Origin: Deltaproteobacteria bacterium
GTDB taxonomy: Bacteria; Myxococcota_A; Polyangia; Polyangiales; JADJMO01
Direction: 5' to 3'
Length of the DNA: 64,000 bases
Assembly (NCBI GenBank): GCA_025363655.1
Contig: JANYDK010000018.1
Coordinates: 1 to 64,000 of the forward strand
The notes below the pieces were generated by a model. The model made no database searches and was not told the origin of the DNA. It saw only the letters and a list, made by a program, of their open reading frames with translations. Each line of letters opens with the position of its first letter. Position 1 is the stretch's first letter. A program made the position numbers and the translations under genes. This document shows, piece after piece, positions 5,831 to 44,785 of the stretch.

Positions 5831-7324
5831 TCAGACCGCGCAGCTCTGCAAGAAGTGCGTGCGGTCTCTCACGGTCGTCCACTTCTTGAAGATGTCGACC
5901 ACCGCCGGGTCGCCCGATCCGAGCTTCTCGAACAAGTAGTCCTGGATGCCCTTGTGCACCGCGCAGAGCGTGCTCTCGCGCATGCGCCCGAAGATGGTGC
6001 CTTGGCTCTTGTGGTTGTGCACCGGGCAGACGCCGCAATACGCCTGGTACGTGCAGTTCACGCAGTCGGGTTGGGCGTCGAGGTTCGAGGCGATGGCGAG
6101 CGCGCGCACCGTCTCGTGTCCCATCAGCTCGCGGTACGAGGTCTCGCCGACCTCGCCGATGAGAAAGGTGCTGTCGCCCATCTCGTGGAGCATGCGGCCC
6201 TCGTCGCAGGTGAAGATCTTCCCGTCGTAGTTGTAGGCGATCTGTCCGATGCCAGCGCCGCAGGGCGAACGGATGTCGAGGAAGTTCGGATCTTCCCCGC
6301 CGAGGATCTTGGTGAGGAAGATCGCGGCGAAGCGCTCGAGGATCTGCACGCCCTGCTTGTTCAGCTCGAGCATGTAGTCGACCGCGTCGCGATAGAACGT
6401 CATGTACTCGGCGCGCGGGTATTCGATGCGATGCCCTGTTTTGTCGGCGAATCCGAAGGGATCGACCGGGCGGAGGAAGAGCGCTTTGCAGCCGAGCGAC
6501 ACGTAGGTGTCGACGATCTCCTTCCATTGCGGGAGCGCCTCACGCGTCGTCGTGAGGAGCGCTTCCACGTGATAGAGCGTCGGATCGAGGCCGATGCGCG
6601 CGTACTCCTCGTTGATTCGCTTGATCCAGTGCGTCGCCTTCTGGTGCGCCGAGGCTTGCGGGAGACGACGTTGCTTGTCGTGGATGTGCTCGGGGCCGTC
6701 GATGCTGGTGCAGATTTGCACCTTCTTGCCGACGAGGTAGGCGACCTTCTCTTCGTCCATCAGCGAGAGGTTGCTCACCATCGTGAACTCGAGCTGCTTC
6801 TGCGCCTTCTCGTTCTGCTTCAGCGCGTAGTCGATGATGTGCTTCACCACCTCGAAGGCGACGAGCGGCTCGCCGCCCTGGAATTCGAGGGTGACGTGCG
6901 GGTTGGTGGTCTGGAGAATCTTGTCCACCGTCTGCTCGGCGATCTCTTTGGTCATGTCCGTTTGGACTTGATCCATGTTCGCGCGCGAGGCGTGGCAGTA
7001 GACGCACGTCTCGTTGCAACGAAGCGTGACGACGACGATGTGGAGGTTCGGCCCGTACGAGAGGAAGCCCTTGCGGGCGCGGAGCTGACTCGCCATCGCG
7101 TCGCGGTTCTCTTCGCCGCGGATGAAGTTGCGCTCGGCGAGGCGCTTCCAGTATTCGCTGCCGCGCGGAACGGTGCCCTCGGCGAAGAGTCGGAACTCTT
7201 CGTGCGAGAGGAGGAGGAAGCTCCCCTCGGTGTTGCTGATCAGCACCTTCTCTTTGCCGATCGCGCGATGCTTGAACGGGAGCGCGAAGGTGGTCGAGGG
7301 CTTGCGGATCTGCAGCAGGTTCAT
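5831..7324 (-). CDS. hxsB: HxsB-like radical SAM/SPASM peptide maturase
   Basis: A 497-residue rSAM enzyme whose ATG (7324) overlaps the previous stop as ATGA. The N-terminal 100 residues look like a PqqD-type RiPP recognition element. The cluster motif CNETCVYC (C103, C107, C110) binds the SAM-reducing 4Fe-4S cluster, and QGGEP lies at 149-153. The C-terminal third has a full SPASM Cys pattern, including CVNCTYQAYCGVC and a final Cys near 465, for two auxiliary clusters. Length, layout and two HxsD-like neighbours match the His-Xaa-Ser system maturase HxsB, which acts on HxS-repeat peptides. The likely substrate is the HGS-repeat peptide at 44507-44785. It is last in a five-gene operon. Confidence 0.75.
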   Translation of the reverse strand: MNLLQIRKPSTTFALPFKHRAIGKEKVLISNTEGSFLLLSHEEFRLFAEGTVPRGSEYWKRLAERNFIRGEENRDAMASQLRARKGFLSYGPNLHIVVVTLRCNETCVYCHASRANMDQVQTDMTKEIAEQTVDKILQTTNPHVTLEFQGGEPLVAFEVVKHIIDYALKQNEKAQKQLEFTMVSNLSLMDEEKVAYLVGKKVQICTSIDGPEHIHDKQRRLPQASAHQKATHWIKRINEEYARIGLDPTLYHVEALLTTTREALPQWKEIVDTYVSLGCKALFLRPVDPFGFADKTGHRIEYPRAEYMTFYRDAVDYMLELNKQGVQILERFAAIFLTKILGGEDPNFLDIRSPCGAGIGQIAYNYDGKIFTCDEGRMLHEMGDSTFLIGEVGETSYRELMGHETVRALAIASNLDAQPDCVNCTYQAYCGVCPVHNHKSQGTIFGRMRESTLCAVHKGIQDYLFEKLGSGDPAVVDIFKKWTTVRDRTHFLQSCAV

Positions 7325-7587
7325 TTCGCCTCTTGCTTCGCGGTCGCTGTCGTCTTCTCGGCGCGCCCGAGCTTCTTCGCCTGCGCGGCGATGGTGAGCC
7401 CGAGCGCATAGTTGGAGAGCTCGCCGGCGACGCGCTTCTCCCGCGCGCCATCGGCCGCCGAGAGACGGACGATCCAATGGGCGGTCTCCTCGGCTTGCTC
7501 GAAGCTCGCGTGGGGGCCGAAGATCTTCAGCGCCTCGTCGACGGACTTCCCGTCGTAGAGCTCGCGATGGAAACGGAGCTCGATCAC
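7321..7587 (-). CDS. Small HxsD-like protein
   Basis: An 88-residue protein starting at GTG 7587, which overlaps the stop of the preceding HxsD-like gene (GTGA); its own stop overlaps the HxsB start (ATGA). The order ELYDGKSVDEAL ... HWIVRL ... GELSNYALGLTI resembles the core of HxsD proteins, which have an LLNDYxLRE-like helix. The C-terminal tail is Lys/Ala-rich. HxsD proteins are small partners of HxsB/HxsC with no established enzymatic activity; a leader-binding or scaffold role is an inference. It looks like a shortened paralogue of the gene at 7584-8111. Confidence 0.6.
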   Translation of the reverse strand: MIELRFHRELYDGKSVDEALKIFGPHASFEQAEETAHWIVRLSAADGAREKRVAGELSNYALGLTIAAQAKKLGRAEKTTATAKQEAK

Positions 7588-8111
7588 TTTCCCGCCTCGG
7601 GCTTGGTGACGCTGCTCGTCGCCGCCTCGTCGTTCGGCGTCGGCGCGGTTGCCTTCGGATCGCCCTTTTTCTTCGCGTATTTCTCTTCCCACGACATCGC
7701 GATGCCGAGCGGATCTTCGAATGCGTCGTCGGAGAAGTCGAAGGCCTCGAGCTCTTCGAGACTGGGCGCGCCGCGGGCACCGGAGAGGGCCTGCGCGGTC
7801 ACCGCCTCGATGGTGGCGCGGTTTTCGCGCGCGATTTGCGAACGCCACGCGCACGAGAGGAGCTCGTTGGAGAACTCGCCGACCAGCTCGCGCGCAGCGT
7901 CTCCGGCGAGCGTGCCCTTCTTCGCGCTCAGCGTGACGCGCGTCTGTCCACTCGCCGGCTTGTCGAGGAGCACGTAGCAACGATCGATGAAGACGTAGGC
8001 GGCGGCGTAGACGGCTTCGAGAGGATAGAGACCGTCGTCGACCTTGAGGTGGACGGCGCCATCTTGGTCATCGAAGGAGACGAGGTCGCTCGGCAGCGAT
8101 TCGAGGGGCAT
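7584..8111 (-). CDS. hxsD: HxsD-like His-Xaa-Ser system protein
   Basis: A 175-residue protein from ATG 8111. Its N-terminal half has the HxsD pattern: DGLYPLEAVYAAAYVFIDRC followed by a beta stretch and then EFSNELLSCAWRSQIAREN with the helix running into ATIEAVTAQALSG. This corresponds to the LLNDYxLRE helix and the following Ile/Ala-rich helix of the family. The last 55 residues are acidic then Lys/Ala/Thr-rich and probably flexible. No cysteine cluster or catalytic motif is seen. It is cotranscribed with HxsB through a second, shorter HxsD-like gene. The assignment is by eye and a profile search would settle it. Confidence 0.65.
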   Translation of the reverse strand: MPLESLPSDLVSFDDQDGAVHLKVDDGLYPLEAVYAAAYVFIDRCYVLLDKPASGQTRVTLSAKKGTLAGDAARELVGEFSNELLSCAWRSQIARENRATIEAVTAQALSGARGAPSLEELEAFDFSDDAFEDPLGIAMSWEEKYAKKKGDPKATAPTPNDEAATSSVTKPEAGK

Positions 8112-8139: not shown

Positions 8140-9066
8140 TCATCGCGACGGACGTAGCGGCACCAATTCGCCTTCGCCGTGCAATCGGAGGTAGTCGGCG
8201 CGCGGCCCGGCGCATCGCGGGTGCGCGGAGCAGGTGGTGCAAATGGCGTGGTGCGAACCCTCGAAAGGCGACGTTTCCAGGGGAAAAGCCCGCCCGGAAG
8301 GATCGACCACCTCGAGCCGGAGGTCACGGACGCTCTGCCACCGCCCGCGCAAGTCGCTCGGCAGGGTGCAGGGGGGAGTGTGCAAGGTGACGAGCTCGAC
8401 CCCCGCCTCGGTCGCCGCCGCCGCCGCCTCGCGAAGGTAGGTGTGCAGCGACGCGATGCGCGGGACCTCGGCCTCGACCGCGGGATCGACGACGTCGTGC
8501 GCCGAGAGGAGCCAGAGCCAGAAGACGGTGACGCCGCGCTTCGCGAAGTCGCGCACGGTCTCTCCGAGGTCGGGCGCCGTCGTGCGCGTGACGAGGACGT
8601 CGGCGGATACACGAAGTTTCGACGAGGCCTGGTTGCACGCTGCGAGCACGTCGAGCGCGCGAAGAAGGAGCGCGTGGGCGCCTTCGCTGCCGCTCAGCGC
8701 GTCGTGGAACTCGGGCCGATGTGATTTGACGTTGAGGCGGACGTCGGTCACCCCCGCGCTCGCCAGCGCCTCGACGTAACGCGGGTAGGCGAGCCGCAGC
8801 CCGTTGGTCTGGAGGAGCCGTCGCTCGAAGCCGAGGCGCTTGGCGGTCGCGATCACGGCGAGCAAATCGGCTCGCAAAGTCGGCTCGCCGCCGCCAACCC
8901 ATAGTTTGGATATATTTCTTCGACGCGCGTCTTCGAGGAGCGCGCGGACCGTCTTGCCGTCGAGCGAATCCTCGCCACCTTCACATGCGCGGCAGCCGAT
9001 GCAACGGAGGTTGCAGCGATAGTCGAGGGCGAGCTCGAGCCATTCGACGGGCGCGCTCGAGGTCAC
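8140..9066 (-). CDS. Radical SAM protein (MoaA/twitch-like) in HXS operon
   Basis: A 308-residue rSAM protein starting at GTG 9066, overlapping the upstream stop by GTGA. The cluster motif is CNLRCIGC (C18, C22, C25), with a fourth Cys at 28, and GGGEPT lies at 58-63. The C-terminal segment CTTCSAHPRCAGPRADYLRL ends in GEGELVPL. This matches the CxxCx5CxG...EL.P signature repeated through the cluster, which probably holds one auxiliary Fe-S cluster. It is not an obvious HxsC. Its place in the operon suggests that it acts on the same peptide as HxsB; the reaction is unknown. Confidence 0.8.
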   Translation of the reverse strand: MTSSAPVEWLELALDYRCNLRCIGCRACEGGEDSLDGKTVRALLEDARRRNISKLWVGGGEPTLRADLLAVIATAKRLGFERRLLQTNGLRLAYPRYVEALASAGVTDVRLNVKSHRPEFHDALSGSEGAHALLLRALDVLAACNQASSKLRVSADVLVTRTTAPDLGETVRDFAKRGVTVFWLWLLSAHDVVDPAVEAEVPRIASLHTYLREAAAAATEAGVELVTLHTPPCTLPSDLRGRWQSVRDLRLEVVDPSGRAFPLETSPFEGSHHAICTTCSAHPRCAGPRADYLRLHGEGELVPLRPSR

Positions 9067-10367
9067 GAACCGCCGTCTCGGTCTGCGCGAAAGTCGAGGA
9101 AGATGGGCGCGGGTTCTTCGGGCGTGCCGGACGGGCCGGAGAGCAGGCGTCTTGCGAAGGCTAGGTCGAGCGCGTGGACGAAGGTGCCGTTCGGTGCGCG
9201 TCGCGGCGTGGCCCGGAGGATCGCGCCCGCCGCGTCACGACCGACGAGGACGCGCGCGCCTTCGCGATCGACTGCCACCTCGTGCGTGAGACGTCGCCGA
9301 AGACGCGCGGCCGCGAGGGGCGCCTCGGCGTCGACGTGGGCGAGCACGGCGTTGGCATAGGAGAGCGCGGCCGGGCATCGATAGCCACAAGGCGTGAAGG
9401 TGACGAGCGCACTTCCACACTCGAAAAGAAGGTGATTGAGCTTCCACGAGGGCGAGGGAACGTAGGCGCCCCTGGCGACCAAATACGCCTCGGAGAGCGC
9501 TTCACTCGGAGCGAGGCTGGGCGAGAGGGCGACGCGCTCGACGTAGGCATCGACGCAACAGCGCGGATATCCGAGGGCGATGCCGAGCTCGTGGTACTCG
9601 GCGGCGCGCGCTTGCACGCTGACCTTGGGGGCGAACGTCTTCGCCTCGACGGCGCGCACGTGCTCGGCGATCGCCATGGTGCGCGCGACGTAGACGAGCC
9701 GCAGCTTGCGTTCGTGATCGCCGTCGTCGTCGATGAAGAGGCCATCGCCTGCCGCGGCGACGAGCCCGAAGCGCGCGTATCTGGCGCGGAGCATGGCCTC
9801 GCCCTCCGATTCTTCTCGCGAGGTGCTCAGCCGCATGACGGGCTTGATGCCGGCAAGCACGGCCTGCAGCTCGGTGTCGATGCGCGTGTCGTCGTCCGTC
9901 GAGAGCGAGACCCCGAGCTCGGCGGCGGCGGCCTCGGCGAGCGCGATTTCCCGGGCGATTTCTCCCGGCGCGCGCGCGGTGAGCCCGTCAGGCACGAGGT
10001 CGAGGAGGTAGCGTCCGAGCTTCGGCGCCGCGCGGGCGAGACCATGGATGCGGCCGGCGACGGGAGCGAGCTCTTCGGCGACGGGCAGGACGACATCGAC
10101 GGGGATTCCGATGGCGGCGCCGCGCGCGAGGGTTCGCAAGAGCTCGCGTGGGCTTCCGGGCAAGCCGAGCTGGTCGTGCACTTCGGCGTCGAAGCTCGCC
10201 ACGGTCGCGCGCAATCGCACGCGGGTGAGGGCGCGGAGGTCGCGGAGCGTGGCGATCGCGACGGCACCGTCGGTGACGATCACGACTTCCTCTGCCCCGT
10301 CCGCGAGAGCGTCGCGCGCCGCGGCCGCGGGATCGTCGGAGGCCCTCGTTTCCACGACGCTGCGCAC
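9063..10367 (-). CDS. DUF483-like protein with an rSAM-like N-terminal half lacking the cluster motif
   Basis: A 434-residue protein starting at GTG 10367, first gene of the HXS operon. Residues 150-260 precede a C-terminal domain with GYPRCC (C270, C271) and CGYRC (C327, C331), resembling DUF483. The same CC plus CxxxC pattern recurs at the C-terminus of the 1439-residue rSAM fusion. The N-terminal 150 residues have the alternating alpha/beta rhythm of the rSAM barrels nearby, including a segment like the conserved HD....GSxxxxxxxL part (DQLGLPGSPRELLRTL), but no CxxxCxxC. It may be a degenerate rSAM partner. The four Cys could bind metal; function unknown. Confidence 0.65.
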   Translation of the reverse strand: MRSVVETRASDDPAAAARDALADGAEEVVIVTDGAVAIATLRDLRALTRVRLRATVASFDAEVHDQLGLPGSPRELLRTLARGAAIGIPVDVVLPVAEELAPVAGRIHGLARAAPKLGRYLLDLVPDGLTARAPGEIAREIALAEAAAAELGVSLSTDDDTRIDTELQAVLAGIKPVMRLSTSREESEGEAMLRARYARFGLVAAAGDGLFIDDDGDHERKLRLVYVARTMAIAEHVRAVEAKTFAPKVSVQARAAEYHELGIALGYPRCCVDAYVERVALSPSLAPSEALSEAYLVARGAYVPSPSWKLNHLLFECGSALVTFTPCGYRCPAALSYANAVLAHVDAEAPLAAARLRRRLTHEVAVDREGARVLVGRDAAGAILRATPRRAPNGTFVHALDLAFARRLLSGPSGTPEEPAPIFLDFRADRDGGS

Positions 10368-10398
10368 GGCAGGGTCGAGCGTACTACACTCGTGGAGG

Positions 10399-11949
10399 AT
10401 GGAGCCGGACCGCCAGATCGAGATTCAGCTCGGTCACATGTGCGGCAATCGCTGCGTCTTCTGCGTCAGTGGTCAGCGCACCGAGATGCGCGAGGCGTTC
10501 CCCATCGCCGCCGATCCGGTGATCGAGAAGCTCCGCGAGGCGCGCTCGAGCGGGATTTCCAAGCTCACGCTGCTCGGTGGCGAGCCGACCATCCAGCCCG
10601 AGTTTTTTCGGGTGGTGCGCGCCGCCGTCGAGCTCGGGTTCGGAGAAATCGTCGTCTTCACCAACGGCGTGAAGACGGCGCGAGGCTCCTTCGTCGACGA
10701 GGTGTTGGCGACTGGCGGCAACTTCACGTGGCGCCTCTCGTTCCAAGGTGCCGACGCGCGCAGCCACGATCGGACGACCCGCAAGCTCGGCTCCTTCGCG
10801 CGGCTCGTCGAGTCCCTCGAGAACTTGCGCGCACGCGGCCAACGCATCACCGTCAACATGTGCGTCGTCCGCTCGAACTACGAGTCGGTCCCGGCGTTCC
10901 CGGCGCTCCTCGTGCGCTACGGCGTCAGCCAGCTCCACCTCGACATGATTCGCCCGCTCGACGCCGGTGAGCGAAGCGAAGACGAGATGCGCGCGATGAT
11001 GCCGCGCTATCGCGACTTGGTGCCTGCGCTCGAGCAGATGATCGCGGGTTTTCCCCCAGATTTCGACGTCAACGTCGGCAACTTGCCGTACTGCGTGGCG
11101 CCGTCGCTCTTGCCCTTCATCCATCACGACGGCAGCCCGACCTTGACCGTCGCCATCGACGGCGACGACTCGCTGAGCGAGCCCTGGGACAAGTACGAGG
11201 TGAAGCGTCGCGACAAGGTGAAGGTCGACGCTTGCCGCACCTGCCTCTTCGACGATCGTTGCAGTGGCGTCTTCGACACCTATCGGCGCTTCTACGGCAC
11301 TGAAGAGCTCGTGCCCATCGACCGCATCCGGCTGCCGCTCGTCGATTCCGAGCGGCGCATGTTCACGATGCACGCCGAGCCGCTCGTTCATGCGCTCACC
11401 GAGATGGGCGCGATCATGCAACTCGACTCGCACGCGCAGCGTGTCTTTGCCAGCTTCGGCGAGATTCGTCTCGGTCTCGCGAGACCTGGCGTCGGCGCGG
11501 CCGGCACCGATCAGTTCTCGCTCTTCCTCGCGTCCGCTCCAGCCATCGACGCAACGACCCTCGCGCTTCTCCGCCGCGTCTTCGCCAAGTTGGTCGAGGT
11601 CTCGGGCGCACGCGCTCTTCACGAGGTCGGCGACGACGCCGCCCATCACGGCCCGATGCGCGCGCAGGCCGGCCTCGACGGGCGCATCGGCGGCGCCCTC
11701 GCGCGTCTTCGTGCGTCGGCGCCGTATCGGGAATTGACCTGGAAAAAAGCGAGAATCGGCGATCGCGGCCGCGCGGCTGCGGTCGTGCTGGAGCACGAAC
11801 AAGGCACCGTCGTGACGCTCTCGTGCGCGGTCGAAGATGCGGACGAACCGATGCGGTGCGGCTACCGACTCGATCGTCAGCTCGCCACGCCGCCGCCCGG
11901 GCTCGTCGAGGGCGTGCGCGCCGCGATGTCGGCGCTCGCGGGACGATGA
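10399..11949 (+). CDS. Radical SAM protein with unrecognised C-terminal domain
   Basis: The start is ATG 10399, preceded by GGAGG, giving 516 residues; the frame is open further upstream, but that part lies over the divergent gene. The cluster motif is CGNRCVFC (C15, C19, C22) and LLGGEPT lies at 58-63. CRTCLFDDRCSGVFDTYRRF with GTEELVPID is the shared C-terminal twitch signature, at about 280-310. A further 190 residues, without cysteine motifs, look like an independent alpha/beta domain that I cannot name. The gene is divergent from the HXS operon across 31 bp and meets the HExxH gene tail to tail. Substrate unknown; peptide modification is inferred from context. Confidence 0.8.
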   Translation: MEPDRQIEIQLGHMCGNRCVFCVSGQRTEMREAFPIAADPVIEKLREARSSGISKLTLLGGEPTIQPEFFRVVRAAVELGFGEIVVFTNGVKTARGSFVDEVLATGGNFTWRLSFQGADARSHDRTTRKLGSFARLVESLENLRARGQRITVNMCVVRSNYESVPAFPALLVRYGVSQLHLDMIRPLDAGERSEDEMRAMMPRYRDLVPALEQMIAGFPPDFDVNVGNLPYCVAPSLLPFIHHDGSPTLTVAIDGDDSLSEPWDKYEVKRRDKVKVDACRTCLFDDRCSGVFDTYRRFYGTEELVPIDRIRLPLVDSERRMFTMHAEPLVHALTEMGAIMQLDSHAQRVFASFGEIRLGLARPGVGAAGTDQFSLFLASAPAIDATTLALLRRVFAKLVEVSGARALHEVGDDAAHHGPMRAQAGLDGRIGGALARLRASAPYRELTWKKARIGDRGRAAAVVLEHEQGTVVTLSCAVEDADEPMRCGYRLDRQLATPPPGLVEGVRAAMSALAGR

Positions 11950-11951: not shown

Positions 11952-13115
11952 TCACCTCGGAAGGTTTTGAAAGTGTGCGTCCCAGCGCAACAGCTCGTCG
12001 AGCACTCCTTGCCCAATCGGCGTCGCCTTCGCGTGCTCTCGCAGCACCGAGGTGCCCTCGTGGTTGCCCTCGACGATGTCGGCGAATCGTGAAGCGAAGC
12101 TCGGGTGGCGGCTGAGAGGGTCTCCTTCCGCGAGCATCGACTCGTAGAGGCGCGCCACCGGCACGAAGGCGTGCACCGCCAGGAGGACGCCGTGAAGCGG
12201 GCGCGGGTCAGGGCGCACCGGGCTCGGATAGAGCGGCGCGTAGGCGTTGTAGAGAACGTCGTCGCTCTCGAAGAGTGCGTTCAACTTGTTGTGCGAGAAC
12301 TCGTGGATGACCGCCTCGGTCATGGTCATCGGCTGCGGATGCAACGTCAGGTAGATGGTGCCGATCGCCTCGCGGTACGACGCCGACAGATGCGCCTCGG
12401 CGTCGAAGCCCACGGGGACGAACTGCTGGACGTAGAGATCGATCTCGCGACGAAGATCCGGAAGATGACGCTCGATGCGGTCGAGCGCGTCGCGCAGCGA
12501 GTCACACCATTCTGCAGGTGTTTTCTCGCCCAAATCGATGCGATTGCCCGACTTGCGCGGATGCGCCTCGACCATGGAGAGCGGGTTGTCGTCTTCGAGC
12601 GCGAGGACGATGTCGCCGGCGACGTCGTGAAAGGCCGCGCTCGGCTTCGGCATCGTCTCGGGAGAGATCAGCGTCGGACGTTCGAGCACGAAGCGACCCG
12701 CGAGGGAGACGATTCTGGCCGGTGGCGACGTCAATCGAAGCTCGCCCAATGGCGCGCCGAGAACCGTCAGCTCGACGGCGATCGTCGCCACCAGCTCGGC
12801 CACGAGCGCATCGGTCGGAGCGACTCGAGCGCACCGAAGCAGCACGCCGACGTTGACCCGGCGGAGCACGGCCGCGAGGGCAGAGGCGCGATCGGGCATC
12901 CTCGCGATCGCGCGTGTGAGCGTGGCGATGTCGCGCCTTGGACCCTCATCCGACACGGGCGAAACGGGCGCGCGCAGCACGAGCCGGAGATCGTCGAGGA
13001 GCCGGCTCGTCGCACGCGAAAGAACCGTCCGCGCCGTCGTCGAACCCGGTTCCGGAAGCGTCAAATCGAACGGCGGAGCGAGCGCTCTCTTCATCGACGT
13101 GGGCGATGCGCTCAC
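11952..13115 (-). CDS. HExxH-type (alpha-ketoglutarate) putative peptide beta-hydroxylase
   Basis: Starting from GTG 13115, which overlaps the upstream stop (GTGA), gives 387 residues; ATG 13094 gives 380. The C-terminal third carries IHEFSHNKLNAL (HEFSH, 264-268 in the ATG numbering) and, about 30 residues on, RPDPRPLHGVLLAVHAF with His301. This is the pattern of the mod_HExxH family found beside rSAM RiPP maturases. Family members fused to rSAM enzymes have been shown to be Fe/2-oxoglutarate enzymes that hydroxylate a beta-carbon of the peptide. Here the protein is free-standing but coupled to two rSAM genes. Target residue not deducible; His or Ser of the repeat peptide are candidates. Confidence 0.8.
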   Translation of the reverse strand: MSASPTSMKRALAPPFDLTLPEPGSTTARTVLSRATSRLLDDLRLVLRAPVSPVSDEGPRRDIATLTRAIARMPDRASALAAVLRRVNVGVLLRCARVAPTDALVAELVATIAVELTVLGAPLGELRLTSPPARIVSLAGRFVLERPTLISPETMPKPSAAFHDVAGDIVLALEDDNPLSMVEAHPRKSGNRIDLGEKTPAEWCDSLRDALDRIERHLPDLRREIDLYVQQFVPVGFDAEAHLSASYREAIGTIYLTLHPQPMTMTEAVIHEFSHNKLNALFESDDVLYNAYAPLYPSPVRPDPRPLHGVLLAVHAFVPVARLYESMLAEGDPLSRHPSFASRFADIVEGNHEGTSVLREHAKATPIGQGVLDELLRWDAHFQNLPR

Positions 13116-13996
13116 CACGGCGCGAGCTCGCCATCGCCGTGGAGCGTGACGTAGGCGCGAAGAATCTCGCCCGAGCAGGCGGGGACGAAGCGGCACGTGC
13201 CTGCCTGCGGACAACGCACGAGCGGCGTGCGCGCGCCGATGCTCGCCGGATGCGCCGACGGAACGAGCATGCGCATGCGAGCCGCCTTGGCCTCGGAGGC
13301 GTGCGTAAGCCGCGTGTGGAGCGCGCAAGGCCAGAGACCGGAGACGCGCATCAGCTGCTCGACGTCGAGCCCGGTGGCGATCATCGCGTCGGCCACCTCG
13401 TGCTGCGTCGGCGTCACGCGACGATAGGGATCGTCGGGTGTCTCTCTCTCGGGGAACGGCAAATCGGCTGCAAAACCGATGTTGCGCGCGCGCGTGAGGG
13501 CGACGATTGCGGGGAGCGAGGGGAGCACGCGCAGAGTGCAGACGGTGTGCACGGTGACCGCGCGAGGTGCTTCGAGACGGGCGAGGACGTCGAGCGCAGC
13601 GAGCACGCGATCGAAGGCGCCGGTGACGCCGACCACCGCGTCGTGGCTCGCTGCGTCGGCGCCATAGAGGGGCACATGGTAGCGACGGTAGGGCGGCGCC
13701 GCCGTGAGGAGCGCACGCACGAAGGTCTCGTCGGAGAGCCGCACGCTCGGTCCATGGAGCTCGAGATGCGTGAAGCCGACGTCACGCGCGGTCTCGAGCA
13801 GCGCGAGAATTCCCGCAAATGCCAGCGGATCGATGCCGGTGATGCGAAGCGCGTGGACGCCCTCTTTCGCCGCGCCACGCACCCGCTCTTGCAAGGGCTC
13901 GAGGGAATCGGGCCGGATGCGATCGGTCGCGATCGAACAGAACTCGCACCGCTGTCCGCAGGGGCCATTGACGTTGAGCTTGAGCTCGGACGGCAC
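13112..13996 (-). CDS. Radical SAM protein with variant GIDP loop
   Basis: A 294-residue rSAM protein starting at GTG 13996, whose G is also the last base of the upstream TAG. The cluster motif is CGQRCEFC (C13, C17, C20). The usual GGEP loop, which contacts the SAM amino group, is replaced by GIDP at 54-57, unlike the cluster's other members. The C-terminus has CRFVPACSGEILRAYVTLHG and ends GDGELAPW, the shared twitch-type signature. It lies between the triple-rSAM fusion and the HExxH protein in one coupled operon. The loop change may mean altered SAM use or loss of activity. Confidence 0.78.
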   Translation of the reverse strand: MPSELKLNVNGPCGQRCEFCSIATDRIRPDSLEPLQERVRGAAKEGVHALRITGIDPLAFAGILALLETARDVGFTHLELHGPSVRLSDETFVRALLTAAPPYRRYHVPLYGADAASHDAVVGVTGAFDRVLAALDVLARLEAPRAVTVHTVCTLRVLPSLPAIVALTRARNIGFAADLPFPERETPDDPYRRVTPTQHEVADAMIATGLDVEQLMRVSGLWPCALHTRLTHASEAKAARMRMLVPSAHPASIGARTPLVRCPQAGTCRFVPACSGEILRAYVTLHGDGELAPW

Positions 13997-16900
13997 TACT
14001 CGCGCCTCTCTTCCGGGAGCTCGGCGAGCATCGGCAGCCGGCGCACGAGACGATCGCCGGTGAAATCGAGCAGCCAGGGCGGCTCTTCGGAGAAGCGAAG
14101 CTCGGCGACGAGCTGCTCGTCACGATCGATCCGGAAACTGCGGCCGATTCGCGTGAGGCGGTTTCCCTTCTCGAGCTGTGAGATCGTCTCGACGTAGAAG
14201 GTGCGGAAGCTCGCGCGACCGAGCATGCGATCGTTCACGCCGAGGTTTCGGTGCGAGAGGACGCGATCGTAGTGCCACGCCGCATTCCCACCCGCGGCTG
14301 CGTTCGAGCTCGCGGGCCGCGCGTTCTCGAGAAGCGCGTACTGTCCGTCGGGCGCCAGCACCGCCACCGAGCGAAGCGCGTTCACGAGAGCCTTGGCGAA
14401 CGTCGGCCTGTCCCGCGTGATCACCTCGAGCGTGCGACGCGCCAACTCGGCGGTACGCGCGCAGGTCGGCGTGCACGGAAACTGCGAAAAAAGGCGAAGA
14501 TCGGCCGCGGCCCAGTTGAGCTCGGGGGGAAGGGCGCCGAGCTGCTCATCGGCGAGCCGGGAGACGAGCGCGCCATCGGTTTGTTCGGCACTCTCCGCGA
14601 AACGCTCGACGCAGCACGAGGGATACCCGAGGAGCTCACCCATGCGGAGGACGAGCGGCAGACGCTCGCGGAACGACGTCACCAGCCGCGGCTCGATCTC
14701 CATCGCCTCGTCGACCGGCGCCTGCTCGAGGCCGATGAAGGCGATCGCCCGCGACGATCGAGGATCGGCGAAGACGCGCGCGAAGAGCCCGTTTTCTCGG
14801 GCTCTCTTCGCAGCTTGCTCGGCGCTCTCGACGTCACCGCGCTCGGTCTTGATGACCTGACGAAGACCGGCGCGGAGCTGCAAGAGCTCGCGATCGGCGA
14901 CGCCGGGGTTCTCGTCGGCCCAGGTTACGGGAAGGCGCGCGAACGCGGCGTCGTCGGTGACCTTGGCGGCCCTCGCGGCATTGGCGGCGGGGTTCTTCGC
15001 GCGCTTCGGTTCGAAGGCCACGACTTCTCCGCCACGCACCGGCCGCAGCTCGTCGACGCCGTACATCGTCGCGTACGTCGAGCGGATGCCGTAGCAGCGC
15101 TTGTCGAGCTCGCACTCGCCGCAGGCCTCGGACTTGGTGAAGCCCTTCGCGCGCGCGAGCTCTTCCGACGGTAAATCGTGTGCGAAATGCTCCTGCCGGA
15201 GCGCACGCGGGAGGTAACACGCGGGCACGCCGCACTTGGAGTCGAAGCCGGTCCAACGCAGCCCGCGCTCGGTCGCGCGCGAGTATGCCGTCTCGAGGGC
15301 CCAGGCGACGTCGCGAAAGCGTGGAATCAACTTGGTGTCGCGGGGCACGTTGTCGGTCGAGGCGGCGACGAAGGAGAAATTCGCCACCACCTTCCCCGGA
15401 TGCCCGAGCTCCCGATCGATGAAGTCCGGCAGGAGCGCCAGCTCGTCGACGTTGTAGCCGCAGAGCACGAAATTGAGACAAACGGCGACGCCCTCGGCGA
15501 GGAGGTTCTGCACGCCGGCGATGGTCTTCACGAAGGTGCCGGGCGCCGCGGTGACCCGATCGGAGACCGCGGCGGTGACGCCATGGAGGCTGATGAACGC
15601 CTGATTGAGACCAGCCTCGACGAGCTGATGGGCGAACGCGCGGTCGGCCATCTTGATGGCGTTGGTCTGCAAATCGAGCTCACGGACGCCGAGCTCGCGC
15701 GCGAGGCGGATGTACTCGGGGAGGCGCGGGTTGAGGGTGGGCTCGCCGCCGGAGAGATCGAGCTCCGCACCGCTGGCCGCGGCGTCGCGGATCTCTCGCT
15801 CGATGATCTCGTGCTCGATCGCCGGCAGTTCGCGCGAGACGAAGCAGAAGTCACACGCCTGGTTGCAGTGGAAGTTGACGCGGACGATGCGCCGCTCGAC
15901 GACGCCCTCCTTCGACTCGAGGAAGAAGCTGCTCCGATACTCTTGCAACATGCGCGTGCGCTCACGGCTGAGCTGCACCACGCCTTCGAGCGAGTCGGTT
16001 GCGTGCAACGTGCGCGCGATCCCAGCCACTTCGGCAGCGATCGAGGCCATCGGTCCCGGGCAGACGTCGCGCGCCGCGCATCCTTCGCATTGGGCAATGC
16101 GTCGGTGTTTGCCGTGATCGCGTTCGACGAGCGCACGACCGACGCGCAAAACGCCCTTGATCGCACTCGGATTCTCGAACACGCAAGGCGGCAGCTCGCC
16201 ATCGACCGCGGCGCTGACCGCAGTGCCCGTCTTCTCGAACGCGCGCACGGCGGCCTCGAGCTCGCGCGCGGCATCGGCGACGGCGAGCGCTCGAAAGCCG
16301 GGTGGACCGACGGCGACATGACGTGCGACCACTGCCTTCGCGAGCCCCGACTCGACGATGCGGGCGAGCTCGCCGCGATTGTCCGGCAGCATCGCGACGG
16401 CCAGCTCGACGCCGACGCCCGCATCTTTCAGCGCGCGCAAGCCCGCCATCGTCTGCGCATGTCCTCCCGGGTCCCGCGTGATGGCGTCGGAAATGCCCGG
16501 ATTCAGGCTATTGAGAGCCACTCGTACGCGATCGAGCCCAGCCTCGACGAGCGACGGAACGTCGAGGTCTTTGGCGTTGGTCTCGAGCACGACCTCGCCG
16601 ACGCCGAGATCGTGCGCCAGCTTGATGAGCTCGGGGAGGTACCACTCGAGGCTCGGCTCGGCGCCGGTGAGGACGACGCTGCGGACGCCCTCGCTCGCCG
16701 CCGCACGCACCGCCTGGATGGCCCGGGCCGCCCGCGCGCGATCGCCGTGGCTCTCGTCTCCACGATGCACGCAGAAGGTGCACGTCTGGTTGCAGCGCTT
16801 GTTGAGCGTGATTTGCTGCGTCGACGGGCCTTTCTTGGCGACGTCGTTCGGCGCCGGCGCCATCCGCTGCGGACGCCCTCTTTTCCCGCGTGCGACGCCC

Positions 16901-18315: not shown

Positions 18316-18322
18316 GGCTGGG

Positions 18323-18346
18323 TGGAAGTATAGCGCTAGTATTCAG
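18323..18346. promoter_or_regulatory. Compact divergent promoter region with palindrome
   Basis: Only 37 bp separate two divergent rSAM genes. TATACT on the minus strand lies 11 nt from the ATG of the giant fusion, and TAGTAT on the plus strand lies 10 nt from ATG 18353. Between them is the perfect 8-bp palindrome TAGCGCTA. Both genes could have very short or no 5' leaders, and a single regulator could control both. This is a reading by eye of weak motifs. Confidence 0.35.
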
Positions 18347-18352
18347 CTGCGG

Positions 18353-26728: not shown

Positions 26729-26746
26729 GCCGCTCGGCGCTTCGTG

Positions 26747-33989: not shown

Positions 33990-34014
33990 CCTGGAAATGT
34001 CCTAGACTTTGCCG

Positions 34015-36324: not shown

Positions 36325-38174
36325 TCGGCGCCCGCGTCGCCCTCTTCCTCGTCGTCGTCCTCTTCGCCGGATTCGCCCACGCCGAGCGATGCGGCGACGA
36401 AGCCCGCGCGTGGATCGATCGCTGCGCAGAGACCACCGGCGTCGCCCTCGAGCTCGAGTCGTGCCCCGCCGGCGTCGCCATCGTTCGCACGCCGGAGGTA
36501 CGCATCGAGATCTCGACCTCGGACAAAGCCTTCGCCCGCGCCGGCGCCTATGGTCTCTCGCCGATCGGCAGTTTTCCCGATTGGAAGTCGGAGCCAGCGC
36601 CGCGTCGTGCTGCCTTCGACGCGGTCTTGCGATGTGTCTCGGCCGAGGCACCGATGGCGCTCCTCGCCCCCGACGCGTCCGCACCGCCTTCCGGGTCGAA
36701 CGCAAATTCGGACGCAAGTTCGGACGCGAGCCCGAACGCGAGGACGTGGTCGCGGCCTTGGCTCTTCGTCGCCGCCGTCGTTGCCGCGCTCCTCGCGTTG
36801 ATCCCGAGCATGCGCCGCGCGCGCCCCATCGCCATCGCCGTCGTGGGCGTCGCCGTCGTCTTCATCCTGCGTCGCGCGCTCGGCCCCTTCGCGTTCTTCC
36901 ATCAGAACGGGCAGGGACCAGTCTGGATCGAGTTCGCCTTCGGCGGTGACGCCGGCGAGTACGGCCCCGGCTATCCCGAGCTCTTCGGCTTCGCGGCGCG
37001 CGTGCATCGCCCCGACCGCGGCGTCGCCTTCTTCCAAGAGGCGCTCGCCGCGACGGTGCCGCTCTCGGCCTACGCGATCGCGCGCGCCGCCAGTGCTAGG
37101 CGAAGGACGGCCGCGCTTCTCTTCGTCGCCTTCGCGCTCGATCCCGTGCTCACCCGCGTCGCCGGCAGCGAGTCGTATTTTTCCGCGATCGGCGCGCTCC
37201 TCTTCGCGGCCGCGGCGGTGCTCGCCGAGAGCGATCGACGCTCTTTGGGCCTGCATCGCGCACTCGGCATCGTCGCCGCCGCGCTCCTCGTCGGGCAGGC
37301 GGCGCGCATCCATCCGCTCGCATGGGTCCCGAGCGCGCTCGTCCCGCTGGTGATCTTCTGTCGGCCCGGGCGCGTCCGCGATCGCGCCAGGCGCACGCTC
37401 GTCGCCGCCATCTCCATCGCGGCGCTGGTGACGCCCCTCGTCCTCCCCACCCTCCGCGCCGGGCTCACCGGTCGCATCGGCGGCGAATTCCTTCCCGGCG
37501 TCCGCCACCTGCTCGTCGAGCGAGGCGTGTGGGCAGCGATTTTCATCGTCGTCGCGGGCGTCCTCGCCGTTCTCCCTTCCACGCGGAGTCGCGGCTCGCG
37601 CATCTTCGTCCTCGTGGTCGTCGTCGCCGTCGCGGCGCTCTCCGACATGCTCGCGAACGACGCCCGCGTCGTCCACGCCGCCCACCTACACCTTTTTGCG
37701 CCCGCCGCCGTCGCCGGAATTGCCTATTTTCGTGCTCGTTGGGATGCTGTGGCTGTCGGTGCGCTCGTCGCTGCGCATTTCTTCTCCGAGCGCGGACTCC
37801 TCGTCCTTCCCACCGACGCGCGCGAGGAAGCATGGGCGCTCGAATGGCGTGAGCAGCTCCCTCGAGGCTCCGAGATCGCATCGGTCTCCCGCGCTGGCCT
37901 TCGACTCCTCCTCTTGCCCCTCCTCGGCGAAGGTCTCCCGCGCTGGCAGCCGATCGATGAAGGCGGCCACGCCAGCTTTGGCGAAGGCGCACACTACTAC
38001 TACCGCGGCTCGCTCTGCGTCACGCCCGAGGGCGCTCCGACGTGTGCGCGCTTCGAATCCGAGCACACGCTGCGCCTCGTCGACTCGCGTCGTTTCCCCT
38101 CCATCGCCAGCCTCCCATGGGCCCCGATGCCTCCCGGCGAGGTCGAGGTCGCGCTCTTCGCCATCGAGAAGTGA
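36321..38174 (+). CDS. Polytopic membrane protein with exported N-terminal domain
   Basis: Start GTG 36321 is chosen because it overlaps the upstream stop as GTGA and places a clean signal peptide (ending FAHAER) at the N-terminus; this gives 617 residues. An exported domain of about 110 residues with several Cys is followed by a Ser/Asp/Asn-rich linker, then ten or so membrane segments (about 150-500) and a C-terminal soluble part. A loop with FFHQNGQGPVWIEFAFGGDAG could be the acidic outer loop of a GT-C-like enzyme, but no family is assigned. Coupling to the halogenase and double-rSAM genes links it to the cluster's product, perhaps in transfer or display at the membrane. Confidence 0.7.
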   Translation: MIGARVALFLVVVLFAGFAHAERCGDEARAWIDRCAETTGVALELESCPAGVAIVRTPEVRIEISTSDKAFARAGAYGLSPIGSFPDWKSEPAPRRAAFDAVLRCVSAEAPMALLAPDASAPPSGSNANSDASSDASPNARTWSRPWLFVAAVVAALLALIPSMRRARPIAIAVVGVAVVFILRRALGPFAFFHQNGQGPVWIEFAFGGDAGEYGPGYPELFGFAARVHRPDRGVAFFQEALAATVPLSAYAIARAASARRRTAALLFVAFALDPVLTRVAGSESYFSAIGALLFAAAAVLAESDRRSLGLHRALGIVAAALLVGQAARIHPLAWVPSALVPLVIFCRPGRVRDRARRTLVAAISIAALVTPLVLPTLRAGLTGRIGGEFLPGVRHLLVERGVWAAIFIVVAGVLAVLPSTRSRGSRIFVLVVVVAVAALSDMLANDARVVHAAHLHLFAPAAVAGIAYFRARWDAVAVGALVAAHFFSERGLLVLPTDAREEAWALEWREQLPRGSEIASVSRAGLRLLLLPLLGEGLPRWQPIDEGGHASFGEGAHYYYRGSLCVTPEGAPTCARFESEHTLRLVDSRRFPSIASLPWAPMPPGEVEVALFAIEK

Positions 38175-41909: not shown

Positions 41910-42458
41910 ATGACAGCACGCAAGGCCGCGTCGCGACGAGAGATCTTGCAGGTGGCAGCGGCCGGTGTCGCGGGCCTCGGCCTCGGTCGTCACCTGACGT
42001 CGAATACGTCGAATACGTCGAACGCGCTGACGAAGCCCGCAGTCGATGTCGAAGCGGCGCAGCGCCCAGCAACTGCGACGAGCGCTCGCGAGGACGCCGA
42101 GAGCTACCTCGGTGATCTGGTCGGCGAGCACCTCGGTCGCTATCGCGTGGTCTCGATCGGCAAGCTCGAGCGCGGCGGCATCCCCGTCGTCATGAGCGTG
42201 GCGAGCGGCGCCACCTTTCGCGTCGACGTCCTCCGCTTCGATCCCACCGAAGGTCGCCAAGGCATCGGCGCCGCCAGCTCGGTCTCGGTCTACCTCCGCA
42301 ACGGTGGCGATGGTCGCAAGGCCACCGACGAAGAGCACGGTCTCGGCGCCATGGCGCTCGCGAACACGCTCGCTCGTCGGGAGAAGGCCGGCACGAAGCC
42401 GCCGAGCGGTCTCCTGACGATGGACGAGCGCGCGGCGTACGACGCGTCGCTCACGTGA
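41910..42458 (+). CDS. Tat-signal exported protein upstream of an rSAM pair
   Basis: Start ATG 41910 is preceded by GGAGG (41901-41905), giving 182 residues; the longer open frame to the left is a shadow of the MopE gene. SRREIL at about 8-13 followed by a hydrophobic Ala/Gly/Leu stretch is a twin-arginine signal, implying export after folding. Next comes the short tandem TSNTSNTSN, then a domain of about 110 residues without Cys (YLGDLVGEHLGRYRVVSIGKL...). It lies 4 bp before the rSAM gene at 42463 and two rSAM genes form its operon, so it may be a modified protein substrate or a binding partner. Family not recognised. Confidence 0.7.
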   Translation: MTARKAASRREILQVAAAGVAGLGLGRHLTSNTSNTSNALTKPAVDVEAAQRPATATSAREDAESYLGDLVGEHLGRYRVVSIGKLERGGIPVVMSVASGATFRVDVLRFDPTEGRQGIGAASSVSVYLRNGGDGRKATDEEHGLGAMALANTLARREKAGTKPPSGLLTMDERAAYDASLT

Positions 42459-42462
42459 TCAA

Positions 42463-43545
42463 GTGACCGAGAGCGCGCGGAGCGTCGTTCGACTCGGCTC
42501 CGCGTGTGACAACGCCTGCGTATTTTGCGGTCAAAACGGCGCTCCCGAGCTGGTATTGGAGCGGGCAGCGATCGACCTCGCGCTGACGACGGCTCGCGTA
42601 CGATCGTGCGAGGTCACCCTCACCGGGGGCGAGCCGACCTTGCGCGCAGACCTCGACGACATCGTCCGCGCGGCTCGCGCGCTCGGCTTCGATCGCGTCG
42701 GCATCCAGACCAACGGACGACGACCCGAGAGGATGCGCCCGCTCGTCGCCGCCGGCCTCACCGACGTCCACCTTTCGATTCATGGTGGAGTCGCGGCCGC
42801 GCACGACTACCACACCGGCATTCCCGGCAGCTTCACCGCCGCGAGCGCCACGCTCTCGGAGGCCCGCGCGCTCGGCATCGACGCCGTCGTCACCACCGTG
42901 CTCACTCGCTCGAACGCCCGCTCGCTCGCCGAAACCGCGCGGCTGGTCATCGACCGACGCGCCAGCGCTTGGTGTCTCGCGGTGCCACGCATTCGTGGAC
43001 GCGCGGCCGAGCACTTCGATCGCATCGTCCCACGCCTCGGCATCGTCATTCCCTTCGCGCTCCACGCCATGCAAGTCGCCATCGCCGCGAAGATCCCTGT
43101 CTTCGTCCGCGGCGCGCCGCTCTGCCTCCTCGGTCCTTTCGCCAAACATTCGCTCGCCGAAGAAGGACGCGCTTTCGGTGAAGCTTGCGAAGGATGCGCG
43201 GCGCGGCCTTCGTGTCCCGGCGTCGAGCCGACCTACCTGCGACGTTTCGCCGGCGACGAGCTCTCGGCGAACCCGAAGAGTTCCGCGGCAGAGCTCAATC
43301 CCATCGCCCGCCTCTTCGTGGGGCCGGGAGAGCTCGCTCCGGCGGTCGAGCGCGTCGTCGCCGAGGCTCCTGCCGCCGCGCGCGTCGCGCTCCCGATGCT
43401 CGGCAAGGTGCAGCCGGCCCGCGAAGAAGTACCGCGCGCGGTCGAGAAAAAGTCTGGTCCAGCGCTGCGTGAGCTCTTCAAAGAGCTGTTCGTCGAGAAG
43501 CAGGCGAACGCCGCGGGCGAGCGCGCGGGAGAGGATCGCGACTGA
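42463..43545 (+). CDS. Radical SAM protein, twitch type
   Basis: A 360-residue protein from GTG 42463. The cluster motif is CDNACVFC (C15, C19, C22), with TGGEPT at 54-59 and LSIHGGVAAAHDYHTGIPG with GSF as in its paralogues. CEGCAARPSCPGVEPTYLRR and GDELSANP at about 244-275 give the shared auxiliary-cluster signature. The last 80 residues are a Lys/Glu/Ala-rich helical tail absent from the other copies. Its stop overlaps the next rSAM start (TGATG). With the Tat-signal gene these form a three-gene operon aimed at the HGS-repeat peptide gene. Confidence 0.82.
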   Translation: MTESARSVVRLGSACDNACVFCGQNGAPELVLERAAIDLALTTARVRSCEVTLTGGEPTLRADLDDIVRAARALGFDRVGIQTNGRRPERMRPLVAAGLTDVHLSIHGGVAAAHDYHTGIPGSFTAASATLSEARALGIDAVVTTVLTRSNARSLAETARLVIDRRASAWCLAVPRIRGRAAEHFDRIVPRLGIVIPFALHAMQVAIAAKIPVFVRGAPLCLLGPFAKHSLAEEGRAFGEACEGCAARPSCPGVEPTYLRRFAGDELSANPKSSAAELNPIARLFVGPGELAPAVERVVAEAPAAARVALPMLGKVQPAREEVPRAVEKKSGPALRELFKELFVEKQANAAGERAGEDRD

Positions 43546-44483
43546 TGGCCAACATCGGCTACATGCAGATCGTCCGGCACTGCAACCAATACTGCCGCTT
43601 CTGCTCCAACCCCTCGTCGGGCTACATGCTCGACCTCGACACCGCCAAGCGCGAGATCGACGACTTCGCCGAACGCGGATATTTCGGCGTCATTCTCACC
43701 GGCGGCGAGCCCTCGCTCTCCGATTTGATCCCCGAGATCACGCGCTATGCGGTTTCGAAGAGGCTCCACGTGCGGATGATCACCAACGGCTCGCGCCTCG
43801 GCAGCGATCCCGACTTGGCGCGCAGCTACGTCGAGGCGGGGCTGGCGCACTTCCACGTCAGCATCCACTCCTGTCGCGATGAGCTCGAAGATTTCCTCAC
43901 CGGCGTGCGCGGCAGTCACGAGCTGGCGATGAAGGCGCTCGCGAACCTCGGCGCTGCAGGGGCGACGGTCAACATCAACACCGTCATCAACAAGTTCAAC
44001 GCCGATCACCTCGACGAGAACGTGAAGGCGTTCACCGCGCGCTTCCCGTTCCTCCGGCACTTCGTCTGGAACAACCTCGATCCGTCGATGGGCCGCGCCG
44101 AGACCAACCGCGACACCGCGCACCGGCTGGCCGACTTCGAGCTCTCCCTCGCGCGCGCGATGCGCTACCTCCACAAGACGGGCCGCACCTTCCGCGTCGA
44201 ACGCGTGCCGCTCTGTTACATGACCGAGTTCGCGCACTGCTCGACCGAGACGCGAAAAATCGTCAAAGGCGAAGAGCGCATCGTCCATTTCCTCGACGAA
44301 AAAGGGACGATTCGACAAACTGACTTCCGCCACCCGAAGGCCGCGACCTGCACGCACTGCTCGCTCGACGACGTCTGCGGCGGTCTCTTCGAGCTCGGCG
44401 CGCACTACGACTTGGGGGAGCTACACCCGGTGTTCGTCTCGAAAGACGACATCGTCCGGAAGGTGCGCGCCGACGTCGATTGA
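43545..44483 (+). CDS. Radical SAM protein adjacent to the HGS-repeat precursor
   Basis: A 312-residue protein with CNQYCRFC (C13, C17, C20), TGGEPS (52-57), a VSIHSCRDELEDFLTGVRG segment, and CTHCSLDDVCGGLFEL with GELHPVF at the C-terminus, the compact auxiliary signature. It has a second Cys pair region (PLCYMTEFAHC) as in several relatives. Its stop is 23 bp from the converging stop of the HGS-repeat gene, making it the rSAM enzyme closest to the putative precursor and a first candidate to modify it. I could not confirm that it is HxsC. Confidence 0.82.
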   Translation: MANIGYMQIVRHCNQYCRFCSNPSSGYMLDLDTAKREIDDFAERGYFGVILTGGEPSLSDLIPEITRYAVSKRLHVRMITNGSRLGSDPDLARSYVEAGLAHFHVSIHSCRDELEDFLTGVRGSHELAMKALANLGAAGATVNINTVINKFNADHLDENVKAFTARFPFLRHFVWNNLDPSMGRAETNRDTAHRLADFELSLARAMRYLHKTGRTFRVERVPLCYMTEFAHCSTETRKIVKGEERIVHFLDEKGTIRQTDFRHPKAATCTHCSLDDVCGGLFELGAHYDLGELHPVFVSKDDIVRKVRADVD

Positions 44484-44506
44484 GATCGATTGCGACCGAG
44501 ACGCGA

Positions 44507-44785
44507 CTACCAGCTGCCGTGCGAGCCGTGGCTGCCGTGGGAACCGTGCGAGCCGTGACTGCCGTGCGAACCGTGGCTGCCGTGTGAACCATGGCTGCCG
44601 TGCGAGCCGTGCGAGCCGTGCGAGCAGTGCTGCCCGAACAAGTTGCCGCCGCCGGGGCCTGCGCCCTGCTCACGGTTCGAAGCGTCGAGGGCGGTCTTGG
44701 AGATCCGATGCTCGGTCTCCGAGAGCATGCCGCTGGCCTTTCGCTTGAATGTCGGAAGGTCGTCTTTTCCGCTTCCGTCGGCCAT
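44507..44785 (-). CDS. Putative RiPP precursor: leader plus Cys-Ser-(His-Gly-Ser)x12-Trp
   Basis: A 92-residue peptide from ATG 44785. The start is fixed by GGAGGA at 44792-44797, 6 nt upstream; GTG 44803 would place that site inside the coding region. Residues 1-53 form a charged leader (LPTFKRKASGMLSETEHRISKTALD at about 10-34) followed by a Gly-rich linker. C54 and S55 precede exactly twelve HGS units (56-91) and a final Trp92. HxS spacing is the substrate type of HxsB maturases and fits three-residue cyclophane chemistry on His. Ser codons vary (TCG 5, AGC 4, and one each of TCC, AGT, TCA), so the repeat is kept at protein level. A metal-binding His-rich protein is the main alternative. 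Confidence 0.85.
   Translation of the reverse strand: MADGSGKDDLPTFKRKASGMLSETEHRISKTALDASNREQGAGPGGGNLFGQHCSHGSHGSHGSHGSHGSHGSHGSHGSHGSHGSHGSHGSW
44513..44620 (-). repeat. Twelve tandem 9-bp units encoding His-Gly-Ser
   Basis: The 108-bp array encodes HGS twelve times without interruption. Gly is GGC nine times and GGT three times; His is CAC eleven times and CAT once; Ser uses five different codons. This synonymous variety argues against a young microsatellite and for selection on the peptide. Confidence 0.95.

Follow-up and report, generated by a model that had tools for sequence, protein, structure and literature searches.

The 64,000-nucleotide stretch analysed here (the window) opens contig 4 of a Deltaproteobacteria bacterium assembly that totals 9.04 Mb, and it carries an island of genes for radical S-adenosylmethionine (rSAM) enzymes. 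Our results indicate that this island is quite probably an expanded His-Xaa-Ser (HxsA4/HxsC4-type) pathway for a ribosomally synthesized and post-translationally modified peptide (RiPP). The sequence evidence for assignment to the Hxs system is strong, because the precursor HxsA4 and the proteins HxsB, HxsC4, HxsD and HxsD-like all pass their NCBIfam cut-offs (Table 1). The initial annotation of this DNA had placed the island correctly at 5831-44785, where 44785 belongs to the start codon of the precursor gene, and had left open whether its enzymes make one heavily modified product or serve several related pathways. The sequence data favour the first of these options, in the form of an HxsA4-type Hxs system, because the genome has a single His-Gly-Ser (HGS) array, no second leader of this kind was found, and the rSAM enzymes N and L (letters as in Table 1) occur only in genomes with Hxs genes. 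The second option may apply to some of the enzymes, such as M with its twin-arginine (Tat)-signal partner.

The HxsA4 precursor

HxsA4 has the sequence MADGSGKDDLPTFKRKASGMLSETEHRISKTALDASNREQGAGPGGGNLFGQHCS(HGS)12W. Its leader contains LPTFKRKASGMLSETEHRISKTALDAS, and its core, QHCS(HGS)12W, is made up of 13 His-X-Ser triads (HCS, then 12 HGS) and a terminal Trp. The 12 HGS units are encoded in six spellings; their serine codons change nine times between the TCN and AGY families, yet the amino acids stay the same throughout. The same holds more widely: over 43 distinct HGS arrays we counted 195 TCN/AGY switches, and the variation between units was synonymous only. Because the units differ in codons without amino-acid change, HxsA4 is considered to be selected at the peptide level.

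Among the 39 distinct precursors gathered, the terminal Trp was present in all and an LP(S/T)F-type leader motif in most, while the core opened with HCS (28), HAS (8) or HGS (3). The number of HGS repeats ranged from 8 to 19 across precursors. The only HGS array of the whole genome lies in this island. A search of the window and of the other islands examined gave no second open reading frame (ORF) with an HxsA4-type leader. Confident genes leave just one larger gap, at 26213-26746, and it contains no obvious precursor.

Precursor number varies elsewhere. Loci L031 (13120-13770) and L086 (9313-9963; G053) have a tandem HxsA4 pair of 12 and 17 HGS units, directly followed by HxsC4. Three further genomes (G071, G162 and G304) gave 53-71 overlapping (HGS)4 matches each, compared with the usual 4-15, which points to very long arrays or many precursors.

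Radical SAM enzymes of the island

Pfam recognizes 16 rSAM domains (PF04055) in 14 proteins spanning 6665-44021, and the CxxxCxxC motif occurs at 16 sites across these 14 proteins. The 14 proteins and 16 motif sites agree with the initial annotation. With 54 PF04055 matches in the 9.04 Mb genome, only 0.23 would be expected in a stretch of this size (Poisson p = 2.5e-24). In characterized RiPP clusters, the number of rSAM enzymes is small, from one to a few. A seventeenth domain with a variant site had also been proposed. This most likely refers to the N-terminal third of the 1439-amino-acid protein at 13996-18315(-), where C185, C211 and C214 (C-x25-C-x2-C) precede rSAM-like sequence. It is a plausible rSAM domain; a Pfam scan of this third gave no match, and no model confirms it.

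For 10 of the 14 rSAM proteins the best NCBIfam match was HxsC4 or HxsC, with nine of the ten scoring under the cut-offs. These nine (B, C, D, E, F, K, L, M and N) fall well below the cut-offs of both TIGR03977 and NF038332, and hence are HxsC-type relatives rather than family members. HxsC4 itself does not reach the cut-off of the plain HxsC model TIGR03977 (87 bits; cut-off 268). The cysteines of a C-terminal twitch auxiliary cluster (C ... CxxCx5C) are present in 10 of the 11 HxsC-type domains, and D has a variant. Protein L has an AprD4/HpnJ-like first domain in addition to its HxsC-type domain. The other four rSAM proteins are HxsB, a B12-binding type (I), a PA0069-like protein (G) and a StsB/PTO1314-like protein (H). 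In HxsB, cysteines in the SPASM pattern are found at C355, C373, C421, C424, C430, C433 and C454. The small genes for HxsD and the HxsD-like protein are located upstream of hxsB. The hydroxylase, oxygenase, halogenase, prenyltransferase and methyltransferases that had been reported among these genes were recovered as well, by matches to TIGR04267, Cupin_8/JmjC, PF04820, the UbiA family, and methyltransferases at 20156-20785 and in the C-terminus of 18287-20152.

All 16 rSAM domains of the window are closer to a domain of another genome than to any paralog in the window. Most orthologs are 50-87% identical, against 24-35% between window paralogs; C, D, H and I have distant matches only. Furthermore, 14 of the 16 domains sit in clades of several genomes that contain no other window domain. 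Since the domains match orthologs elsewhere better than their own neighbours, the island is a collection of old, distinct enzymes. Recent tandem duplication was rejected as the source of the density, as the nearest relative of each domain lies in another genome.

By sequence comparison, the core set consists of HxsA4, HxsB, HxsC4, HxsD, HxsD-like, L, K, N, F, E, B and M, and the local or rarer set of C, D, G, H, I, the halogenase, UbiA, the cupin and the hydroxylase. The HExxH hydroxylase was also found at seven other loci, and the halogenase lies near HxsC4 in only 2 of 80 other loci.

Distribution across the Myxococcota

We examined a phylum sample of 377 Myxococcota genomes and a sample of 56 relatives; the counts and p-values ignore shared ancestry. 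An (HGS)4 array was present in 129 of the 377 genomes, with a reversed-pattern control near zero. HxsB and the array occurred together in 120 genomes, HxsB only in 5, the array only in 9 and neither in 243. The corresponding numbers for HxsC4 were 52, 0, 77 and 248, such that all 52 HxsC4-positive genomes had an array. Among the relatives, HxsC4 exceeded its cut-off in 20 of 56. Enzyme N was found in 23 of the 24 relatives with HxsC-type matches and L in 22 of these 24, and neither occurred in the 32 relatives without such matches. Hence, N and L are confined to Hxs genomes within this sample, even where they are distant from the Hxs genes. A scan of GTDB species genomes yielded 80 HxsC4 loci, nearly all from Myxococcota, and in 36 of them an HGS precursor lay within 10 kb of HxsC4. 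Together, these patterns show co-inheritance of HxsA4 and its enzyme set across the phylum.

Two groups of genomes depart from this pattern. HxsB without an (HGS)4 array was seen in G009, G057, G131, G284 and G316, which possibly have other HxS precursor types. A second clade of HxsC4-like loci (L103-L112, ~42% identical) includes metagenome-assembled genomes (MAGs) of Oligoflexales and Bradymonadales; several of its loci have four consecutive HxsC-type genes, and no (HxS)4 array was found in the locus DNA examined.

The degree of clustering varies between genomes while co-occurrence holds. Using a local model built from the window's own domains, we counted 15 domains in 46 kb in Minicystis rosea, where the precursor adjoins HxsB, 16 in 24 kb in an uncultured Archangium MAG, 16 in 45 kb in G015 and 18 in 60 kb in G030. 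The close relative G003 has 13 and 4 domains on two contigs. In the complete genome of Nannocystis poenicansa, the genes are spread over ~1.6 Mb: HxsC4 and the precursor lie at 5.41 Mb, HxsB is located at 5.80 Mb, and further HxsC-type genes are found at 5.34-5.35, 5.79 and 6.97 Mb. The Hxs genes of a Polyangium draft genome are also spread out. The initial annotation took dispersal without co-occurrence as the mark of a chance aggregation; in N. poenicansa the genes are dispersed, yet HxsA4, HxsB, HxsC4 and additional HxsC-type genes are all present together.

Proposed maturation of HxsA4

The leader of HxsA4 would guide HxsB, HxsC4 and the HxsD proteins to the repeats, and HxsD and the HxsD-like protein would help to present it. 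HxsB (SPASM) and HxsC4 (twitch) may act repeatedly along the triads. The likeliest bond would join the His ring to the beta-carbon of the Ser two residues on, as made by three-residue-cyclophane enzymes. These connect C2 of His or C4 of Phe with the beta-carbon at the second following residue, which can be a Ser (PMC11002830). This chemistry is a guess by analogy, and we offer it tentatively. The other conserved rSAM enzymes (L, K, N, F, E, M and B) may contribute additional reactions, with the B12-type and methyltransferase-fused members as putative methylating enzymes. The local tailoring genes (HExxH hydroxylase, cupin oxygenase, halogenase) could make a species-specific version of the peptide. 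For instance, the HExxH enzyme could act along the core repeats, since hydroxylation of consecutive repeated residues is within the reach of HEXXH enzymes (PMC12636437), and the halogenase perhaps acts on the invariant C-terminal Trp. The alpha/beta hydrolase at 28696-29463 is a candidate for a processing step.

Possibly, the one HxsA4 precursor is processed in sequence by most or even all of the conserved rSAM enzymes, roughly ten in number, which would yield a rigid, poly-cross-linked His-Gly-Ser ladder with further modifications. We consider this outcome conceivable but doubtful. If true, it would represent a RiPP class, conserved as a core trait of many Myxococcota, whose number of radical enzymes exceeds that of all peptides we are aware of. 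If all 14 rSAM proteins serve one precursor, this would alter the view of what is possible for one peptide.

A role of HxsD as leader binder of the type of PqqD or the RiPP recognition element (RRE) was considered but gained no support from structure comparison. The core of its AlphaFold2 model is confident, but Foldseek gave no match at E <= 0.001 (best 0.011), and no PqqD/RRE protein was among the 50 matches listed.

Alternative explanations

Several observations weigh against assigning the whole island to one expanded Hxs pathway. In the window the HxsA4 gene lies 14 kb from HxsC4, whereas the two are adjacent in many relatives. For the accessory genes G, H, I, C, UbiA, cupin and halogenase, orthologs in other islands are rare or absent, and their link to the pathway is by proximity only. 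Family scans of the island recognized neither an exporter nor a typical leader peptidase. We found no reported product for either the named HxsB/HxsC pair or this island, and the chemistry given here is a prediction by analogy. Finally, the gene just upstream of M (41910-42458) encodes a conserved protein that starts with a twin-arginine-like signal. Many other islands contain homologs of it, 33-48% identical, and several of these homologs are located close to an M-like gene. Hence, M may have its own substrate, separate from HxsA4. This would fit an explanation in which several pathways share the island: HxsB, HxsC4 and HxsD would mature HxsA4, and other rSAM enzymes would act elsewhere, for instance M on the Tat-signal protein. 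The membership of G, H and I in unrelated rSAM families, with H and I lacking island orthologs, points in the same direction. We nevertheless regard a shared island as unlikely, given that neither the window as a whole nor its gap at 26213-26746 offers a second leader-like ORF or obvious precursor, and that N and L occur only alongside the Hxs system, even when far away from it.

A different question is whether the product is diffusible. The mature peptide could be retained as a metal-binding, redox or structural peptide, such as a modified His-rich scaffold or a peptide-borne cofactor, which would be compatible with the Hxs assignment. The core is invariant and regular, without the variable region of most RiPP antibiotics, and the Gly at each third residue gives a weak collagen-like match; furthermore, no exporter was recognized, and conservation within the phylum is very wide. 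However, the halogenase, hydroxylases and similar genes vary by species, as in natural-product clusters, and no specifically linked metal-handling partner was found, MopE motifs being common in these genomes. On balance, a retained peptide seems somewhat unlikely. The MopE-like repeat protein at 39950-41722 was considered as a linked copper partner and rejected, because the adjacency is uninformative: this genome contains 34 copies of the motif, and two relatives contain ~146. A chance aggregation of unrelated rSAM genes, to which the dispersed genes of N. poenicansa and the Polyangium draft genome might point, is extremely improbable in view of the 16 domains seen against 0.23 expected, the recurrence of dense islands of orthologous genes in other genera, and the strict co-occurrence even when the genes are dispersed.

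Comparison with known systems

The families of the Hxs system (HxsA4/HxsC4; NF038313, NF038332, TIGR03978, TIGR03976) were defined in silico and are already named in NCBIfam. The island agrees with that system in its HxS-repeat precursor, HxsB, HxsC-type rSAM, HxsD and HxsD-like proteins, all above curated cut-offs. It differs in that the named pair comprises one HxsB and one HxsC, whereas the island has 10 HxsC-type and 3 other rSAM proteins, oxygenases, a halogenase and methyltransferases. The HxsB and HxsC families trace to Haft and Basu, as cited in PMC9062424, and maturation of His-Xaa-Ser peptides by HxsB/HxsC is cited there as putative. In the open-licence literature we found no published description of HxsA4, HxsC4 or such a locus, and the effect of HxsB or HxsC on a peptide was not reported in anything we found. 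The island represents the Hxs system at its most elaborate. Its substrate is clear, and its genes can be divided into a core shared across the phylum (HxsA4, HxsB, HxsC4, HxsD, L, K and N) and a set of local additions. Because sequenced strains in culture also have the system (Minicystis rosea DSM 24000, Nannocystis, Polyangium), a long-standing prediction becomes directly testable.

Triceptide pathways (XncB, MscB, HaaB, YhhB) likewise use a SPASM rSAM enzyme on aromatic-X-X triads, and the H-G-S spacing fits this pattern. HaaB and YhhB join His C2 to a beta-carbon, and MscB joins Phe to the Ser C-beta (PMC11002830). However, one cyclophane-forming rSAM enzyme is described per triceptide pathway, HxsB and HxsC are separate families, and a cross-link in the island's product is a prediction. 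Indeed, HxsB scored far under the cut-offs of the YhhB, XyeB and AmcB models, which places it outside these named cyclophane-forming families.

Several rSAM enzymes on one core peptide are also known from proteusins such as polytheonamide, and from bottromycin, at about three each, some of them acting repeatedly (PMC5682303). However, these are two methyltransferases and an epimerase, or three methyltransferases, compared to 14 rSAM proteins in the island, and the leader is unrelated. In the TvgA/TvgB poly-cyclopropylglycine RiPP, TVGG repeats are modified by an rSAM enzyme, with an iron/alpha-ketoglutarate (aKG) enzyme in the cluster (PMC9062424, PMC11002830). The alteration of a short motif at its repeats, with an iron/aKG enzyme nearby, resembles the island; the single rSAM enzyme, the motif and the modified residue differ.

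Gene content of the island

Table 1. Genes of the island, with window coordinates, strand and supporting evidence.
Feature	Coordinates	Strand	Evidence
HxsA4 precursor peptide, 92 amino acids	44507..44785	-	NCBIfam NF038313 96.7 bits, cut-off 55; Shine-Dalgarno-like GGAGG ahead of ATG
HxsB, rSAM with full SPASM cysteine set, 497 amino acids (start shifted from listed ORF)	5831..7324	-	TIGR03978 570 bits, cut-off 370
HxsD-like protein, 88 amino acids	7321..7587	-	NF038315 71.9 bits, cut-off 41
HxsD, 175 amino acids	7584..8111	-	TIGR03976 59.8 bits, cut-off 50; AlphaFold2 pLDDT (predicted local distance difference test) ~95, residues 11-90
rSAM B, HxsC-type	8140..9066	-	PF04055; HxsC4 best NCBIfam model, under cut-off; ortholog clade of 16 genomes
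434-amino-acid protein; N-terminus weakly rSAM-like, lacking cysteines; C-terminus DUF483-like with LGYPxCC	9063..10367	-	Weak Pfam matches only
rSAM C, HxsC-type (exact start codon uncertain, but located downstream of 10048)	10368..11949	+	PF04055; HxsC4 best
aKG-HExxH peptide beta-hydroxylase (start uncertain)	11952..13111	-	TIGR04267 89.3 bits, cut-off 40
rSAM D, HxsC-type	13112..13996	-	PF04055; HxsC best
rSAM E, 1439 amino acids: variant rSAM-like N-terminus, two HxsC-type domains, DUF483-like C-terminus	13996..18315	-	Two PF04055 stretches; NF038332 two stretches; cysteines
rSAM F, HxsC-type fused to methyltransferase	18287..20152	+	PF04055, PF13489; ortholog clade of 14 genomes, support 0.999
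SAM-dependent methyltransferase	20156..20785	-	PF08242 1.4e-10
rSAM G, PA0069/Rv2578c-like	20790..21926	-	NF033668 1.4e-23, under cut-off
rSAM H, StsB/PTO1314-like	21933..22940	-	PF04055 1.5e-18
UbiA-family membrane prenyltransferase, with decaprenyl-phosphate phosphoribosyltransferase among its nearest named models	22927..23709	-	PF01040 1.4e-14
Cupin_8/JmjC-like oxygenase	23700..24539	-	PF13621 3.6e-38
Polytopic membrane protein, glycosyltransferase-like by sequence appearance only	24539..26212	-	Codon-position GC; no Pfam/NCBIfam family match
rSAM I, B12-binding class (start uncertain)	26747..28690	-	PF04055, PF02310; ApyD best, under cut-off
Alpha/beta hydrolase, proline iminopeptidase type, candidate processing enzyme	28696..29463	-	PF00561 6.5e-20; TIGR01250 77 bits, under cut-off
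HxsC4, rSAM with twitch cysteines	29486..30517	-	NF038332 567 bits, cut-off 500
rSAM K, HxsC-type, second twitch-like domain, no second CxxxCxxC	30521..32353	-	PF04055; C-terminal half vs HxsC4 C-terminus hhalign E 9e-8; ortholog clade of 14 genomes
Tryptophan-halogenase family protein	32433..33989	+	PF04820 3.5e-102
rSAM L, double: AprD4/HpnJ-like rSAM domain then HxsC-type domain	34009..36324	+	Two PF04055 domains; 51-76% full-length identity in most Hxs relatives
Membrane protein, overlaps end of L	36321..38174	+	ORF; no Pfam/NCBIfam family match
182-amino-acid protein, Tat-like signal, conserved partner of M	41910..42458	+	At least 10 other genomes have homologs in their islands or loci; no Pfam/NCBIfam family
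rSAM M, HxsC-type	42463..43545	+	PF04055; HxsC4 best
rSAM N, HxsC-type, best-conserved island enzyme	43545..44483	+	PF04055 4.4e-24; 55-90% identity in 23/24 Hxs relatives, 0/32 others

The LGYPxCC DUF483-like motif is common to the protein at 9063-10367(-) and the C-terminus of 13996-18315(-). With its weak rSAM-like N-terminus and missing cluster cysteines, the former is perhaps a dead rSAM paralog. Protein F carries a second CxxCx5C set as well. The second half of K was considered as a full second rSAM domain and rejected, because only its twitch-like end matches HxsC4. In the structure comparison, the first domain dominated the results.

The UbiA-family protein at 22927-23709, which scores near decaprenyl-phosphate phosphoribosyltransferase, is accompanied in the island by two polytopic membrane proteins without family (24539-26212 and 36321-38174). 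Possibly, these three proteins belong to a lipid-linked sugar pathway instead of peptide prenylation. Outside the island, 46431-48839(+) encodes a VgrG (TssI) type VI secretion tip protein with tandem repeats of 24, 48 and 72 bp in the 3' part of its gene.

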